A stretch of DNA of 64,000 bases, from positions 124,001-188,000 of the forward strand of contig DYEA01000017.1 in assembly GCA_020725885.1 (NCBI GenBank), written 5' to 3'. Positions 15,099 through 61,191 of this stretch are shown here, piece by piece. The number at the start of each line of letters is the position of its first letter. Position 1 is the first letter of the stretch. The position numbers and the translations under genes were made by a program. This DNA is from Slackia sp. (GTDB lineage: Bacteria > Actinomycetota > Coriobacteriia > Anaerosomatales > Anaerosomataceae). A model generated the notes under the pieces. That model was given only the letters and a program-made list of their open reading frames with translations, had not been told where the DNA came from and ran no database searches.

Positions 15099-15127
15099 TT
15101 GGCGGCACGGGTGGGGCGTGGTACCAT
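15099..15127 (+). promoter_or_regulatory. ccmE promoter
   Basis: TTGGCG (15099-15104) and TACCAT (15122-15127) are separated by 17 bases. Counting 7 bases on puts the expected start point at G15134, the first base of a 12-mer that is also found at the same place in the hemA promoter. No transcript data are available to me. Confidence 0.55.
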
Positions 15128-15133
15128 CCGGGT

Positions 15134-15239
15134 GTTCAGGCAAGCAGGCAGGCGAGCGGTGCCGTCTCTGCACACGCAGATGTGCGAGCATCTTCCCCTG
15201 CCGTGGTCGGCATGCGGCATGCGATTGGAGTGAGGCCCG
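15134..15239 (+). ncRNA. candidate structured leader RNA of the ccm operon (shares motifs with the hemA leader)
   Basis: The predicted transcript begins GTTCAGGCAAGC (15134-15145), identical to the predicted 5' end of the hemA transcript. Further on is a hairpin AGATG-TGCGAG-CATCT (15178-15193), matching the hemA leader hairpin in its loop (TGCGAR) but not in its stem bases, which still pair. A second, overlapping hairpin TCTGC-ACAC-GCAGA (15166-15180) cannot form at the same time, because both need the bases 15178-15180. GGCAGG (15147-15152) can pair with CCTGCC (15197-15202) to close the whole structure. A regulatory RNA is an inference from this comparison of two copies. Confidence 0.45.
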
Positions 15240-15911
15240 TTGAACAAGCGAGCCAAGCAGCGCCTGATCGGCGTCACGGTGCTCATCCTCGTCGTCGTGG
15301 GAGGACTCGTCCTGTTCGTGATGACGCAGGGCGGCGCCTATAAGAAGTCAGTCGCCGAGGTGGTCTCGGATCCGTCGCTCGTCGGCAAGCAGGTGCAGGT
15401 GCAGGGACCCGTCGTGTCCGGCTCGTGGACGCCGGACGCCAAGCCGCTGACGTTCTCGATCCGTCAGGAGGACGACCCGAACGGGCCGACGCTCAAGGTG
15501 GTGTGGGGCGGCCCGGTCCCGAGCGCGTTCGGTGACGGAACGGTCGCGATCGTCACGGGCATCGTCGGCGAGGGCCAGACGATCGAGGCCAAGCAGCTCA
15601 TCACGCAGTGCCCGAGCAAGTACGCGTCGTCCAAGGACGCGCTCACCGTCGACGCGCTCCTCAAGAGCGAGCTCGCGGGCAAGCCTGTGAAGATCACGGG
15701 CTACGTCGTCGAGGGGAGCGTCAAGCCCTCCGGGACGCAGCCGCGGTTCTTGCTCGGAACGACGTCCAAAGGCGGCGAGACAATCGGGGTGTCGTGGTCC
15801 GGCGCGATGCCGCAGGGCGCGACCGAAGGTGCCAAGATGGTCATCTCTGGAGAGTTGATCAAAGGCGTGTTCGTGGCCACCGATGTCGCCGTCGACGAGA
15901 AGGAGAAGTAG
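15240..15911 (+). CDS. ccmE: CcmE-type heme chaperone with Cys ligand and duplicated OB domain
   Basis: 223 residues from a TTG at 15240; a TGA lies in frame three codons upstream, so no earlier start is possible. One N-terminal membrane helix (about 8-28) anchors an extracytoplasmic OB-fold (about 45-118). Right after it, where classical CcmE has His-x3-Tyr for covalent heme binding, the sequence is CPSKY, with Cys124 and Tyr128: the CxxxY variant known from archaea and some Desulfovibrio. Unusually, a second domain (about 145-212) repeats the first (GKQVQVQGPVVSGS against GKPVKITGYVVEGS). It heads the ccm operon and should carry heme from CcmC to CcmF. Confidence 0.85.
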   Translation: MNKRAKQRLIGVTVLILVVVGGLVLFVMTQGGAYKKSVAEVVSDPSLVGKQVQVQGPVVSGSWTPDAKPLTFSIRQEDDPNGPTLKVVWGGPVPSAFGDGTVAIVTGIVGEGQTIEAKQLITQCPSKYASSKDALTVDALLKSELAGKPVKITGYVVEGSVKPSGTQPRFLLGTTSKGGETIGVSWSGAMPQGATEGAKMVISGELIKGVFVATDVAVDEKEK

Positions 15912-20344: not shown

Positions 20345-21172
20345 GTGGCCACAGCGGCCGTCATCGCGTTCTGGTTCGCCACCGTCCTGTACGGCGGGGC
20401 GACGGTGCTCTACGCGTACTTCTTCTTGAGCAAGCGGCCGTCGTACTCGTGGTACGCGACGTTCTTCACAGGCGCTGGGTTCTTGTGCCACACGGCGTCC
20501 ATCGGCATGCGGTCCGTGGCCGAGGACGGCACGCGGCTGGACGGCCAGAACCAGCTCATCCTGCTCGCGTGGGCCCTCGTGCTCGTGTACTTCGTCGTTG
20601 AGCACCTCGTGAAGTTCAAGGTCTACGGCGTGCTGCTGGTTCCCGCGGGCACGCTGCTCATGGTGATCTCGCAGTTCTTCGCACGGAAGGGCGCGGCGCC
20701 GGTCTCGCCGCTCGTCGAGAACTGGAAGATCGGCATCCACGTGGCGATGATCGTCTTCGCGAACGCCGGCTTCATCGTCGGCGCCGTCGCGTCGCTCGCG
20801 TACTTGCTGCAGGAGCGGCAGCTCAAGCGCAAGAAGGCGAGCGTGCTGTTCAAGCGCCTGCCGCCGCTCGCGAGCATCGACCTGCTCGCTCGCCGCGCGA
20901 TCGCCTTCGCGTTCCCGGCGTACACAGCGGGGCTCATGCTCGGCATCGTGCGGGCGTACGAGACCGACCAGCAGGGGTGGTGGGCCGACCCGCGCGTGAT
21001 GCTCGCCGGGCTGGTGTGGGGCGCTTTCGGCACCTACCTGGCGCTCCACTACTCCGAGCGGGCGACGGCGAGGACGACGGCCCGCATCGCGCTCGCCGGC
21101 ATCGTGCTGGTCGCGGTTCTCGCGGTCGTGGCGCGGACGGTGCCCGCTGGCTTCCACGTGTTCGGGGTGTAG
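20345..21172 (+). CDS. CcsA/HemX-like cytochrome c biogenesis membrane protein
   Basis: 275 residues from a GTG at 20345 (AGGGGG upstream). Eight hydrophobic segments and a tryptophan-rich stretch QQGWWADPRVMLAGLVW place it in the CcsA/ResC/HemX superfamily; two conserved His positions are in GFLCHTASIG and NWKIGIHVAMI. In Bacillus the related HemX is encoded with hemA and controls its level; CcsA/ResC proteins instead form the System II synthase with ResB, which is absent here. Its place between the ccm set and hemA fits either a heme-channel role or HemX-like control of HemA. I cannot choose. Confidence 0.8.
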   Translation: MATAAVIAFWFATVLYGGATVLYAYFFLSKRPSYSWYATFFTGAGFLCHTASIGMRSVAEDGTRLDGQNQLILLAWALVLVYFVVEHLVKFKVYGVLLVPAGTLLMVISQFFARKGAAPVSPLVENWKIGIHVAMIVFANAGFIVGAVASLAYLLQERQLKRKKASVLFKRLPPLASIDLLARRAIAFAFPAYTAGLMLGIVRAYETDQQGWWADPRVMLAGLVWGAFGTYLALHYSERATARTTARIALAGIVLVAVLAVVARTVPAGFHVFGV

Positions 21173-22016: not shown

Positions 22017-22064
22017 TTTACTCAGCACAGTGAGTAAAAATACTCACCGTCATGAGCATGACGG
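22017..22064. promoter_or_regulatory. cluster of inverted repeats before the DUF4143-type ATPase
   Basis: Three nested symmetric elements lie in 48 bases: TTTACTCA-GCACAG-TGAGTAAA (22017-22038), TGAGTA-AAAA-TACTCA (22031-22046) and CCGTCATG-AG-CATGACGG (22047-22064). The last spans the start codon. The first could terminate SDR transcription, though its T-run is weak. The repeated TACTCA/TGAGTA half-sites look like an operator with shared arms. The stretch is also A+T rich compared with its surroundings. Confidence 0.5.
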
Positions 22065-23266
22065 CTGACATCCCTGAGTATCGTCGCCCCTATGCTCGCA
22101 CGCTGCTCGATCGCTTGCGTGAGCCGCGGCGCTACATCCAGGTCATCTCCGGCCCGCGTCAAGTGGGCAAGACGACCCTCGTGCGTCAAGCTCTCGTCGA
22201 TTCCGGGTTGCCGTACGTCTTCGTCTCAGCGGACGAGCCGACGCTTCGTGACAGCGCCTGGCTGTCGGCCCAATGGGAGCGGGCACGGATCGACGCTCGT
22301 CGCGACGGTCGGGCGGTGCTGGCTGTGGACGAAGTGCACAAGATCACCGGATGGAGCGAGACCGTCAAGCGGCTTTGGGACGAGGACGCTTCGGAAGGGC
22401 TTCCGTTGCACGTGGTCCTGCTCGGCTCTGCACCGGTCGTCATCGGGCACGGCCTGTCCGAAAGCCTCGCTGGCCGGTTCGAGGTCATCCGGATCCCGCA
22501 CTGGTCGTACGGGGAGATGGCAGATTCGTTCGGCTTCGACTTGGACGCGTACATCTACTTCGGCGCTTACCCAGGAGCGGCAGCGCTCATCTCGGACGAG
22601 AGCCGGTGGCGCGCCTACGTGCTCGACTCGCTCATCGAGACGGCGATCTCGCGGGACGTGCTTCTCTTGCAACGGATCGAGAAGCCGGCTCTGCTGCGGC
22701 GCCTGTTCGAGCTCGGGTGTGCGTACTCCGGTCAGGTGCTGTCGTACACGAAGATGCTCGGGCAGCTGCAGGACGCTGGCAACACAGTGACGCTGGCGCA
22801 CTATCTGCATCTTCTTGCGGGTGCGGGTCTGCTGTGCGGGTTGTCGAAGCACTCGGGCGACATCGCCAGGAAGCGCGGCTCCAGTCCCAAGCTGCAGGTC
22901 TTCAACACCGCGCTGATCTCGGCAGTCGAGGGTCGGTCGTTCGCGAGCGTGCGCTCGGACGGCGAGGCTTGGGGCCGGCGGGTCGAATCGGTTGTGGGCG
23001 CGCACCTCGTGAACCTCGCATACCTTGGGCTGCTCGAGGTCTTGTGGTGGCGTGACGGAAACGACGAGGTCGATTTCGTGGTGCGGGACGGCGATCGTCG
23101 TCTGGTCGCGATCGAGGTCAAGAGCGGGATGGCTCGGCCGAGACGCTCAGGGCTGGACGCGTTCCTGAAGCGCTTCCCGGGCTCACGCGCGCTGATCGTC
23201 GGCGGCGTGGACGGCATCCCGCTTGCTGAGTTCCTTCAGGCAGGCGTCGTGGAGTGGCTTGGCTGA
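22052..23266 (+). CDS. AAA ATPase of the AAA_14/DUF4143 type
   Basis: 404 residues. Walker A is GPRQVGKTTL (34-43), Walker B is AVLAVDEVHK (about 89-98) and the ATPase domain ends with LLGSAPVVI. The second half carries the DUF4143 region with a PD-(D/E)xK-like stretch near the C-terminus (DEVDFVVRDGDRRLVAIEVKSG). Such proteins are common accessory genes of unknown function, often thought of as mobile or toxin-like elements. It interrupts the ccm-hem series and has its own symmetric upstream region. Start at 22052 or the second ATG at 22058. Confidence 0.88.
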   Translation: MSMTADIPEYRRPYARTLLDRLREPRRYIQVISGPRQVGKTTLVRQALVDSGLPYVFVSADEPTLRDSAWLSAQWERARIDARRDGRAVLAVDEVHKITGWSETVKRLWDEDASEGLPLHVVLLGSAPVVIGHGLSESLAGRFEVIRIPHWSYGEMADSFGFDLDAYIYFGAYPGAAALISDESRWRAYVLDSLIETAISRDVLLLQRIEKPALLRRLFELGCAYSGQVLSYTKMLGQLQDAGNTVTLAHYLHLLAGAGLLCGLSKHSGDIARKRGSSPKLQVFNTALISAVEGRSFASVRSDGEAWGRRVESVVGAHLVNLAYLGLLEVLWWRDGNDEVDFVVRDGDRRLVAIEVKSGMARPRRSGLDAFLKRFPGSRALIVGGVDGIPLAEFLQAGVVEWLG

Positions 23267-23297
23267 CGTGCTGAGCGCGCTCCGCTGCGTCCGTGCG

Positions 23298-23327
23298 TTG
23301 TCCGGGCGTCCTCGCTGGTGGTAGGAT
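23298..23327 (+). promoter_or_regulatory. hemA promoter
   Basis: TTGTCC (23298-23303) and TAGGAT (23322-23327) with 18 bases between. The predicted start point, 7 bases beyond the -10, is G23334, again the first base of GTTCAGGCAAGC as at ccmE. Confidence 0.55.
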
Positions 23328-23333
23328 GTACTC

Positions 23334-23474
23334 GTTCAGGCAAGCGAAGCGTGTGCGAACATGCGAGGCGTACACCGCCCCCGCCGGGCCTGCTTGCCTG
23401 AACAACAACGCACCGCACCGGCGGGGGCGACCCTTCTCTTGTGAGACAGGCATAGGCGTGACGAAGCAGGCGGC
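23334..23474 (+). ncRNA. candidate switch-like leader RNA of hemA
   Basis: The 141-base predicted leader contains four pairings. Stem A: GTTCAGGCAAGC (23334-23345) with GCTTGCCTGAAC (23392-23403), 12 perfect pairs. Stem B: CGCCCCCGCCGG (23376-23387) with CCGGCGGGGGCG (23418-23429), 12 perfect pairs, interleaved with A. Stem C: GCCTGCTT (23388-23395) with AAGCAGGC (23464-23471), which would cover the bases just before the ATG and cannot coexist with A. Inside A is a small hairpin GCGTG-TGCGAA-CATGC (23349-23364) shared in form with the ccmE leader. The topology suggests control of hemA translation or transcription by alternative folds. Ligand unknown. Confidence 0.55.
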
Positions 23475-24845
23475 ATGCATCTGGTCCTCGTCGGTCTGAG
23501 CCACAAGACCGCGCCCATAGAGATGAGGGAGAAGCTCACCTTCCCTGCTCCCAGGCAGGCGGAGGCGCTCTCGCAGCTCACCTCGGACGGGGCCGTCGCC
23601 GAGGCCGTCATCCTCTCGACCTGCAACCGCACGGAGATCTACGCGCTGTCGTCGGATGCCGAGCGTGGCGTCGACGCGGTGTTGTCGTTCCTTGCCGACT
23701 ATCACGACCTCGACCGCCACGACCTCGTCCGGTACCTCTACGTCGTGAAGGGCGAGGCCGTCGTCAGGCACCTGTTCCGCGTCGTGTCGTCGCTCGATTC
23801 GATGGTCATCGGCGAGGCGCAGATCCTCGGCCAGGTCAAGGAAGCGTACGAGCACGCGTTTGAGAACGGGGCGACGGGGCGCGCGTTCAACCGGCTGTTC
23901 CGTCAGTCCTTCGAGGTCGGCAAGCGCGTCCGCACGGAGACGGCGATCGGCGAGAACGCGGTCTCGATCAGCTACGCGGCCGTCGAGTTGGCCAAGAAGG
24001 TGTTTGATTCCCTCGCTGGCCGCACGGTGCTGATCATCGGCGCAGGGAAGATGAGCGAGCTGACGGCCAAGCACCTGGTGTGCAACGGAGCGGTCGACGT
24101 GCTGGTCGCCAACCGCACCTACGAGCGAGCGGTCGAGCTGGCCGGGCGCTTCTCCGGCCGCGCGATCGAGTACGGCGCGCTGTTCGAGCGGATGCGCGAC
24201 GCCGACATCGTCATCTCCTCGACGGCGGCGCAAGAGTACGTCGTGCGCAAGGACGACGTGGCCGGCGTGATGCGCGGTCGCCGCGGCCGGCCGCTGTTCT
24301 TCATCGACATCGCAGTGCCGCGCGACATCGACCCCGCCGTCAACGACCTGTCTGACGTCTACGTCTACGACATCGACGACCTCAACGGCGTCGTCGAGTC
24401 GAACCTCGAGGAGCGCATGCGCGAGGCCGAGCGGGCCGAGGCGATCATCGAGGAGGAGGTCGCTGAGTTCCTGCGCTGGCAGGAATCGCTCGAGGTGGTG
24501 CCTACTGTTGCCGCCATCCGTGCGAAGGCCGAGGCCATCCGGCAGGCCGAGCTCGAGCGCGCGCTCAAGCGGCTCGGGGGGCTTTCGGAAAAGGAGCTCG
24601 CCACGATCGACGCACTGACGTGCGCCATCGTGAACAAGATGCTGCACGGGCCGACTGCTCGCCTCAAGGCTGCCGCCGAGGAGGCCGACGGCTACCTGGT
24701 CGTCGAGGCTGCCCGCGAGCTCTATGGGCTCGACGAGCACGAGGCTGGACGAGGCGGGGTGCTGCGCTCGCTGCTCAACCGCAAGGCCCGCGAGATCCAC
24801 GACACGCACGCCGCGAAAGAGACGGGAGACGGACTTGGCTGCTGA
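23475..24845 (+). CDS. hemA: glutamyl-tRNA reductase
   Basis: 456 residues. The catalytic domain shows LVGLSHKTAPIEMREKL at the N-terminus, the nucleophile Cys50 in STCNRTEIY and SSLDSMVIGEAQILGQVK. The NADPH domain has VLIIGAGKMSELTAKHL and the C-terminal dimerisation helix is present. The enzyme makes glutamate-1-semialdehyde from Glu-tRNA, the committed step of C5 heme synthesis, and is normally the controlled step. No strong Shine-Dalgarno is seen; AAGCAGGCGGC precedes the ATG and can be sequestered by the leader. hemC begins inside its 3' end (11-base overlap). Confidence 0.98.
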   Translation: MHLVLVGLSHKTAPIEMREKLTFPAPRQAEALSQLTSDGAVAEAVILSTCNRTEIYALSSDAERGVDAVLSFLADYHDLDRHDLVRYLYVVKGEAVVRHLFRVVSSLDSMVIGEAQILGQVKEAYEHAFENGATGRAFNRLFRQSFEVGKRVRTETAIGENAVSISYAAVELAKKVFDSLAGRTVLIIGAGKMSELTAKHLVCNGAVDVLVANRTYERAVELAGRFSGRAIEYGALFERMRDADIVISSTAAQEYVVRKDDVAGVMRGRRGRPLFFIDIAVPRDIDPAVNDLSDVYVYDIDDLNGVVESNLEERMREAERAEAIIEEEVAEFLRWQESLEVVPTVAAIRAKAEAIRQAELERALKRLGGLSEKELATIDALTCAIVNKMLHGPTARLKAAAEEADGYLVVEAARELYGLDEHEAGRGGVLRSLLNRKAREIHDTHAAKETGDGLGC

Positions 24846-26667: not shown

Positions 26668-26743
26668 GGGGATGTAGCTCAGCTGGGAGAGCGCTACCTT
26701 CGCACGGTAGAGGCCGGCGGTTCGAGTCCGCTCATCTCCACCA
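26668..26743 (+). tRNA. tRNA-Ala, anticodon CGC
   Basis: 76 bases including an encoded CCA. The acceptor stem is GGGGATG with CATCTCC, and its third pair is the G-U pair that identifies alanine tRNAs. D-arm GCTCAGCTGGGAGAGC, anticodon arm CTACC-TTCGCAC-GGTAG giving anticodon CGC, and T-arm GGCGG-TTCGAGT-CCGCT (one G-U). It reads GCG, a frequent alanine codon in this GC-rich DNA. It sits between hemD and hemB on the same strand, with its own promoter. Confidence 0.97.
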
Positions 26744-60857: not shown

Positions 60858-61191
60858 GGCGACGGCCGGGCGCTTCTGCGCTTGTTCGCTCGTTTTTCGT
60901 AAAGTGACGCGCATCACTATTGACTGTGGCGAGCCGCTGCCTGTACACTCACGGGCACCGCGAGTCCGTTCGTGAAGGGGCGCACTTTCGGTCCGTGGTC
61001 CGGAGGCGATGACTCGCCGCCCTAGTCTGGGCACCGTGGGCGGCGACGAGCTGGTGGTGCAACCGGCCGGTTTGTGTCAGCAGGGTTGCAGGACTGCGGA
61101 GCCATCGACTGGATCAGCGGCATCTCGTCCTCTCGACCCTGCCGACGTGAGACGTCCCGCCACGGTGTGCGAGTGCAGGGAGAGGGGAGTC
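60858..61191 (+). promoter_or_regulatory. CRP/FNR-like operator, promoter and 236-base structured leader of the giant cytochrome gene
   Basis: A T-run (60892-60896) near the start may end upstream transcripts, though no strong stem precedes it. AGTGA-CGCGCA-TCACT (60903-60918) is a perfect CRP/FNR-family type palindrome. One base later comes TTGACT (60920-60925), then TACACT (60944-60949) 18 bases on. The leader from about 60956 to 61191 holds a 9-bp stem TCGCCGCCC (61014-61022) with GGGCGGCGA (61038-61046), a competing GGCGA/TCGCC stem (61005-61009 with 61014-61018), and a 7-bp stem TGCAACC (61058-61064) with GGTTGCA (61084-61090). GGAGAGGGGAG-like Shine-Dalgarno precedes the ATG. Confidence 0.55.

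Follow-up and report, generated by a model that had tools for sequence, protein, structure and literature searches.

The window, which here means the whole stretch of 64,000 nucleotides that was analysed, carries the gene for glutamyl-tRNA reductase, hemA, followed on its 3' side by hemC, hemD, hemB and a radical SAM gene, and preceded on its 5' side by a ccm operon in the order ccmE-ccmF-ccmA-ccmB-ccmC-ccsA, in which the genes after ccmE end at 21172 on the plus strand (Pfam CcmF_C and Cytochrom_C_asm). C5 heme synthesis begins with HemA, whereas the ccm system consumes heme. The features that are used below are as follows.

15099-15104, plus strand: putative -35 box of ccmE (TTGGCG), read by eye and absent from the list of the strict promoter scan
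15122-15127, plus strand: putative -10 box of ccmE (TACCAT), read by eye and likewise absent from that list
15134-15148, plus strand: element a of the ccmE leader, complementary at 15/15 positions to element a' of the hemA leader
15156-15162, plus strand: element b of the ccmE leader (GCGGUGC), complementary to GCACCGC at b' of the hemA leader
15240-15911, plus strand: ccmE (heme chaperone), first gene of the ccm operon (Pfam CcmE, 1.2e-24)
23298-23303, plus strand: putative -35 box of hemA (TTGTCC), read by eye; the layout of -35 box, -10 box, 6-7 nt and GTTCAGGC is common to relatives
23322-23327, plus strand: putative -10 box of hemA (TAGGAT), followed by six bases and then element a at 23334
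23334-23345, plus strand: element a, 5' strand of helix P1 (stem A), from leader alignment and covariation
23353-23357, plus strand: element b (GUGCG), 5' strand of helix P3, from leader alignment and covariation
23376-23387, plus strand: element c, 5' strand of helix P2 (stem B), from leader alignment and covariation
23389-23403, plus strand: element a' (CCUGCUUGCCUGAAC), 3' strand of P1, its 15 nt being the trans complement of the ccmE mRNA 5' end
23409-23413, plus strand: element b' (CGCAC), extended in trans to GCACCGC at 23410-23416
23418-23429, plus strand: element c', 3' strand of P2, with ACCCUU next and no U-run in the window
23475-24845, plus strand: hemA, glutamyl-tRNA reductase, first gene after the leader (Pfam GlutR_N, 4.9e-56)

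The hemA -35 and -10 boxes were also not listed by the strict consensus promoter scan. The position of the TAGGAT box would place the 5' end of the hemA transcript at or beside 23334, so that the transcript probably starts with the 5' strand of stem A. Several other features were observed in the same stretch. An AAA_14/DUF4143 ATPase gene (22052-23266, plus strand) lies between an SDR gene on the ccm side and the hemA leader, and in one relative (G003, L031) an SDR gene is found upstream of the leader instead of the ATPase gene. A tRNA gene (26668-26740, plus strand; anticodon loop CUUCGCA, read as Ala-CGC) lies between the hemD-like gene and hemB, and a c-di-GMP-II riboswitch aptamer at 60993-61077 on the plus strand scored 61.8 bits, above the Rfam cut-off.

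The first-pass annotation had described three long stems in the hemA leader, all of which are present at the positions given for them: stem A pairs 23334-23345 with 23392-23403 and stem B pairs 23376-23387 with 23418-23429, both with 12/12 Watson-Crick pairs, and stem C pairs 23388-23395 with 23464-23471 with 8/8 pairs. The 141-nt leader segment holds two perfect 12-bp inverted repeats, and at least one such repeat occurred in 0 of 1000 dinucleotide shuffles; at least one 8-bp stem like C occurred in 19% of the shuffles, so that C is unsurprising when taken alone. The plain folding energy of the leader is unremarkable (z = -1.2), which is no surprise for crossing helices, since a nested folder is unable to score all of them.

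To place these stems in an evolutionary frame, HemA homologues of relatives were fetched and their leaders compared, with 69 genomes representing the order. The leaders of the order share GTTCAGGC..., GGTGCG, CGCCCyCGCCGG, CCTGCTTGCCTGAAC, AACAAC, GCACC and CCGGCGrGGGCG. A covariance model, R1, that was built on c-c' found the element in 65 of the 69 genomes, and its strong match was always at hemA, with scores of 83 to 112 bits there in comparison to at most 25 bits for the next best match. Among the four genomes without the element, G034 and G053 are without a HemA match, G024 has a weak HemA match only, and G040 is the sole genome of the order that has hemA and lacks the leader RNA; the hemA leader of G040 (L389) is now about 40-50 nt long. 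Weak R1 matches that might have been second copies in Anaerosomatales (L203-L213) were read as coding sequence or chance. Near the hemA start of L067 and L068, a' reads ACGCTT and the start region AAGCGT, a hint of a weak pairing between the two that may covary.

The alignment of the relatives' hemA leaders showed that stem A (a-a') and stem B (c-c') are conserved throughout the order and covary, and a check for loss of their paired bases in close relatives, an outcome that would have counted against them, did not refute A and B. The earlier proposal of helices that cross, as a pseudoknot or as alternatives, in a conserved structured leader, which would be a regulatory element heading the heme operon, is supported by this conservation and covariation. 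Its set of three stems needs revision, since A and B hold, C is restricted to the genus of the window, and a further helix, b-b' (P3), had been missed. This third helix crosses both A and B, which gives the element order a b c a' b' c', and in the order alignment it is 95% paired with 3 pairs changed on both sides. The linkers of the full form measure about 1-8 nt (a-b), 1 nt (c-a'), 3-6 nt (a'-b') and 2-3 nt (b'-c'), and in our judgement these lengths allow P1, P2 and P3 to form simultaneously. The comparative data show that 23334-23429 is a conserved structured RNA, in which the predicted helices P1, P3 and P2 mutually cross.

A pattern search showed that many relatives have a second copy of GTTCAGGCAAGC, which lies on the hemA strand some 7-8 kb upstream of that gene. 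In the window this copy consists of elements a and b at 15134-15162, with a at +1 of the ccmE promoter. Throughout the order the a tag lies at +1 in 34 of the 34 ccmE leaders compiled, a GCGGTG-like b comes next in most of them, and the ccmE leaders inspected have no a' or b' partner in cis. When each ccmE leader was compared with the hemA leader of its own genome, positions 1-15 of the ccmE element a paired almost throughout with a' of the hemA leader. Positions 9-13 paired in 32 to 34 of the 34 genomes, in comparison to only 15 of 33 for pairing of a' with the hemA leader's own cis a at positions 11-13, and the ccmE element can form as many as 15 bp with a', a closer fit than that of the distal a within the hemA leader itself. 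All of the G.U cells at ccmE positions 9, 10, 12 and 13 (30/30) represent A-to-G or C-to-U changes by which the pairing is kept.

Similar results were obtained for element b. The pairing sum of ccmE b was 719.5 in comparison to 478 +/- 15 for shuffled leaders, which is 15.8 sd above them and was reached by 0 of 300 shuffles, even though the pairing is not clearly greater than that of shuffles in about a quarter of the genomes when they are taken singly. Swapping partners among genomes lowered the pairing of b, and 50 of 5000 swaps reached the observed value (p about 0.01, a figure that ignores relatedness). The ccmE element b also tracks lineage changes of b', as in family f7, where b' is CGCACCAAUC and the ccmE leader of G045 carries GAUUGGUGCG; in G045 the ccmE sequence GAUUGGUGCGU pairs 11/11 with the hemA sequence ACGCACCAAUC. 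In the complete genome of G040 the genes hemA and ccmE are both present, but the hemA RNA and the ccmE tag are gone; in G009 the cis element a has decayed and both a' and the ccmE tag are kept. The predicted duplexes between hemA leader and ccmE range from -24 to -31 kcal/mol. The comparison shows that complementarity at the ccmE 5' end has been kept beyond the need of a cis partner. Given that the ccm genes usually lie about 7-8 kb upstream on the same strand in this order, the predicted pairing might also occur inside a read-through transcript.

The tag was also found directly before the Shine-Dalgarno sequence of an unlinked gene for a membrane-anchored protein (no Pfam match) in family f1 and G035, where it is present in 7 of 8 homologues (L395-L402), with a diverged copy in G011; the window genome has its own tagged gene of this kind at G000:C7:223231 (L301). 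Sites resembling a near other genes are short matches that are partly confounded by Walker-A codons, and many matches to GTTCAGGCAAG were set aside as Walker-A GSGK codons or other coding sequence.

R1 also matches members of a second Actinomycetota class, represented by 36 genomes (class X), in families f36, f64, f77, f83, f86 and f88. Full copies head the operon ccmC-ccmE-ccmF-ccmA-ccmB-ccmC-ccsA-met8-hemA in f36 and f88, precede moaB-ccsA-met8-hemA-hemC-hemB in f64, and head hemA-hemC-...-hemB in f86 and f77, and the weaker, shorter matches L155-L160 head ftrD-ccmE, ccmE or hemA operons. Weak matches elsewhere in the phylum (L124, L125, L135) had no heme gene adjoining in the sequence viewed and were taken as chance. 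In the two-class alignment, A2, whose construction fitted c-c' and left a-a' and b-b' unfitted, two-sided changes affect 18 of the 26 pairs, whereas shuffles gave 8.8 and slid controls no more than 5; by helix, they fall into 11 pairs in c-c', 3 in a-a' and 4 in b-b'. The percentage of cells that are paired is 95.8% in comparison to at most 45% when slid. A U-run follows c' in L113, L119-L123 and L155-L160, and none is found in the window or in most of the order. At those loci c-c' can thus be an intrinsic terminator, and in L155 and L158 the a'-c' linker is 0-3 nt, so that P1 and the terminator must exclude each other.

In f36 and f88, where hem and ccm genes form one operon, a cis copy was found and no second tag was seen, and a and a' drift together (GTTTAGGC, GTTTAGACAAG), which is the pattern predicted by a shared-partner constraint. 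Trans covariation was uninformative in the f36 genomes, with no second tag seen there, and they were kept as the single-operon case. In f64 and f83, the hairpin c-[a' b']-c' with its U-run is found without a cis element a (L119-L121, L123), and its loop is kept. These stand-alone hairpins are flanked by promoter-like sequence and a terminator-like U-run, and two of them lie away from heme genes, L121 about 0.9 kb before moaB and L123 before a transposase. In G353, the genome with both L120 and L158, the hairpin loop is matched by eye over 15 nt of the L158 element a and over 7 nt of its element b. The a tag follows promoter-like sequence at hemA, ftrD-ccmE, ccmE, resA/TlpA, FtsX-permease, cupredoxin and cspA genes in f64 and f83. 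At L241, L262 and L267 (f64), the a tag lies in the 5' UTR of cspA-like cold-shock genes. The contexts of the RNA element are in every case promoters of hem and/or ccm operons, or a stand-alone hairpin.

We consider it probable, on these comparative grounds, that the hemA leader is a dual cis/trans riboregulator which coordinates heme synthesis with cytochrome c maturation. Two kinds of evidence were found by comparison: a conserved covarying structure that heads metabolically linked genes, as is expected of a riboswitch, and 5' UTR complementarity with matching variation, as is expected of a trans-acting small RNA. The match of a' and b' to the 5' ends of other mRNAs points to trans RNA-RNA regulation rather than to a stand-alone riboswitch. 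In the proposed mechanism, the 3' half of the leader, a hairpin closed by c-c' with a' and b' in its loop, would act as a reader with two kinds of pairing partner: in cis, elements a and b where the hemA transcript itself begins, and in trans, the a-b tag carried at the 5' terminus by the ccmE operon mRNA and a small number of further mRNAs. RNA-RNA pairing would in this way couple the synthesis of heme (hemA-hemC-hemD-hemB) to its use (ccm). In some class X lineages the reader hairpin would be a putative small RNA that stands alone, with a promoter and a terminator of its own, and the carriers of the tag would be the hemA, ftrD-ccmE and ccmE mRNAs, and probably those of resA, FtsX-permease, cupredoxin and cspA.

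The outcome of pairing may differ with the position of the tag. Where a U-run follows c-c', pairing of a and b with the loop may decide termination, and where a lies beside the Shine-Dalgarno sequence, pairing may block translation. At ccmE, where a is at the extreme 5' end, pairing may change mRNA stability. This effect is favoured there because no response of the Shine-Dalgarno sequence of ccmE is predicted: blocking a and b did not raise its predicted accessibility (0.49 to 0.42), and the idea that the tag unmasks this site was set aside as unsupported. We infer that the pairing of the leader with other mRNAs may take place in cells and that the hairpin may act in trans. On a broader claim our confidence is evenly divided, namely that the reader hairpin, whether part of the hemA leader or released as a small RNA, would read a 5' tag of heme, cytochrome c and iron mRNAs through parallel-ordered a-a' and b-b' helices with its own stem kept, forming a three-helix trans pseudoknot, and that the lineages show a passage between cis leader and trans small RNA.

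A reading that we regard as unlikely is that of a purely cis riboswitch or attenuator, in which P1 and P3 form an aptamer-like pseudoknot, c-c' is a terminator or off-stem, the ligand is heme, a precursor or iron, and the a tag elsewhere is a separate matter. It fits the constant location at hem and ccm operon promoters, the near-invariant nucleotides, the class X U-runs, the exclusion between P1 and terminator in L155 and L158, and the cis-only copies of f36 and f88. However, positions 11-14 of a' hardly vary even though in about half of the genomes the cis partner is unpaired there, whereas ccmE does pair, and a' stays where the cis a is lost, as in G009 and in the stand-alone hairpins. The ligand is hypothetical, and the ccmE a-b tag and its lineage-matched b would go unexplained.

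Less probable still, and quite doubtful in our view, is that a is a DNA operator for a transcription factor downstream of heme and respiration promoters, with a' as a second, inverted operator and helices c and b as a separate attenuator. Operators overlapping +1 are common for repressors, and a is common to the promoters of hemA, ccmE, ftrD, resA and others. Among the promoter-linked sites examined, however, a is transcribed and sense-oriented, and it sits at +1 for hemA and ccmE, whereas in the unlinked f1 gene it follows the -10 box at a distance of about 18 nt. Its variation follows G.U pairing with a', P1 is kept in L158 and L157 by G.U pairs, for which a repeat acting as DNA would have no need, and the ccmE b complements b' with its lineage-specific extensions included. 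The switch of the first-pass annotation, in which stem A leaves the hemA start open and loss of A lets stem C mask it, is very improbable, since C, although perfect in the window's genus, is not conserved beyond it and the best pairing of a' with the start region in other registers averages 6.2 bp there in comparison to 5.3 bp for shuffled tails. A leader peptide was also rejected: single-base indels in the conserved core (AACAACAACGCACC, AACAACACGCACC) among relatives leave no conserved reading frame of the kind that a leader-peptide attenuator would have.

In comparison with known systems, a search of Rfam 15 over 22900-23900 with E up to 10 gave chance matches only (12.6-16.7 bits against cut-offs of 36.7-59), and the T-box and cobalamin families did not match the hemA leader. 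No heme riboswitch paper was found in literature searches that covered few subscription journals, two large papers on ncRNA discovery make no mention of hemA or heme in their main texts, and neither the literature searches nor Rfam yielded an RNA device that couples HemA supply to heme use by ccm. RNA control of bacterial heme or iron metabolism is known from the PrrH small RNA. The hemA leader, as proposed, would resemble PrrH as an RNA control linked to heme or iron, and PrrH differs in phylum and architecture.

Additional trans action by attenuators and riboswitches has precedents (PMC7298713, PMC9373788, PMC11394854, PMC8265627). The trp attenuator rnTrpL of Sinorhizobium meliloti also works in trans (PMC7298713), and the hemA leader as proposed here would likewise be a biosynthetic operon leader that doubles as a trans regulator; rnTrpL relies on a leader peptide ORF and ribosome-stalling attenuation, whereas the hemA leader is without a conserved frame and would pair with a shared 5'-terminal tag. 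Two further parallels are RZ, which is predicted to be a terminated SAM-II riboswitch of metZ (PMC9373788), and the Listeria RNA SreA (reviewed in PMC8079631); as with the hemA leader, each is a metabolite-operon leader with a pseudoknotted or structured 5' UTR, and its terminated form may act on other mRNAs. Both of these belong to known ligand classes, in contrast to the hemA leader, which has no Rfam match and has the crossing order a b c a' b' c'. Small RNAs derived from 5' UTRs include Rli51 (PMC11394854) and Vsr217 of malK (PMC8265627), with which the hemA leader would share small RNA activity in a 5' UTR, putative in our case; it differs in that its cis self-target and its predicted trans targets share one tag and in that there are lineages with the hairpin as a putative separate gene. 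What differs from these precedents is the architecture, the tag shared between self and other mRNAs, and the occurrence of cis-only, cis-plus-trans and stand-alone states, and the hemA leader looks like an undescribed RNA family of a large group of uncultured Actinomycetota. If the proposal is true, a whole order of uncultured Actinomycetota matches heme supply to demand by pairing at mRNA 5' ends, the 15-nt tag predicts targets, and f36/f88 (cis only), Anaerosomatales (cis plus trans) and f64/f83 (stand-alone) make up a testable series between cis leader and trans small RNA.
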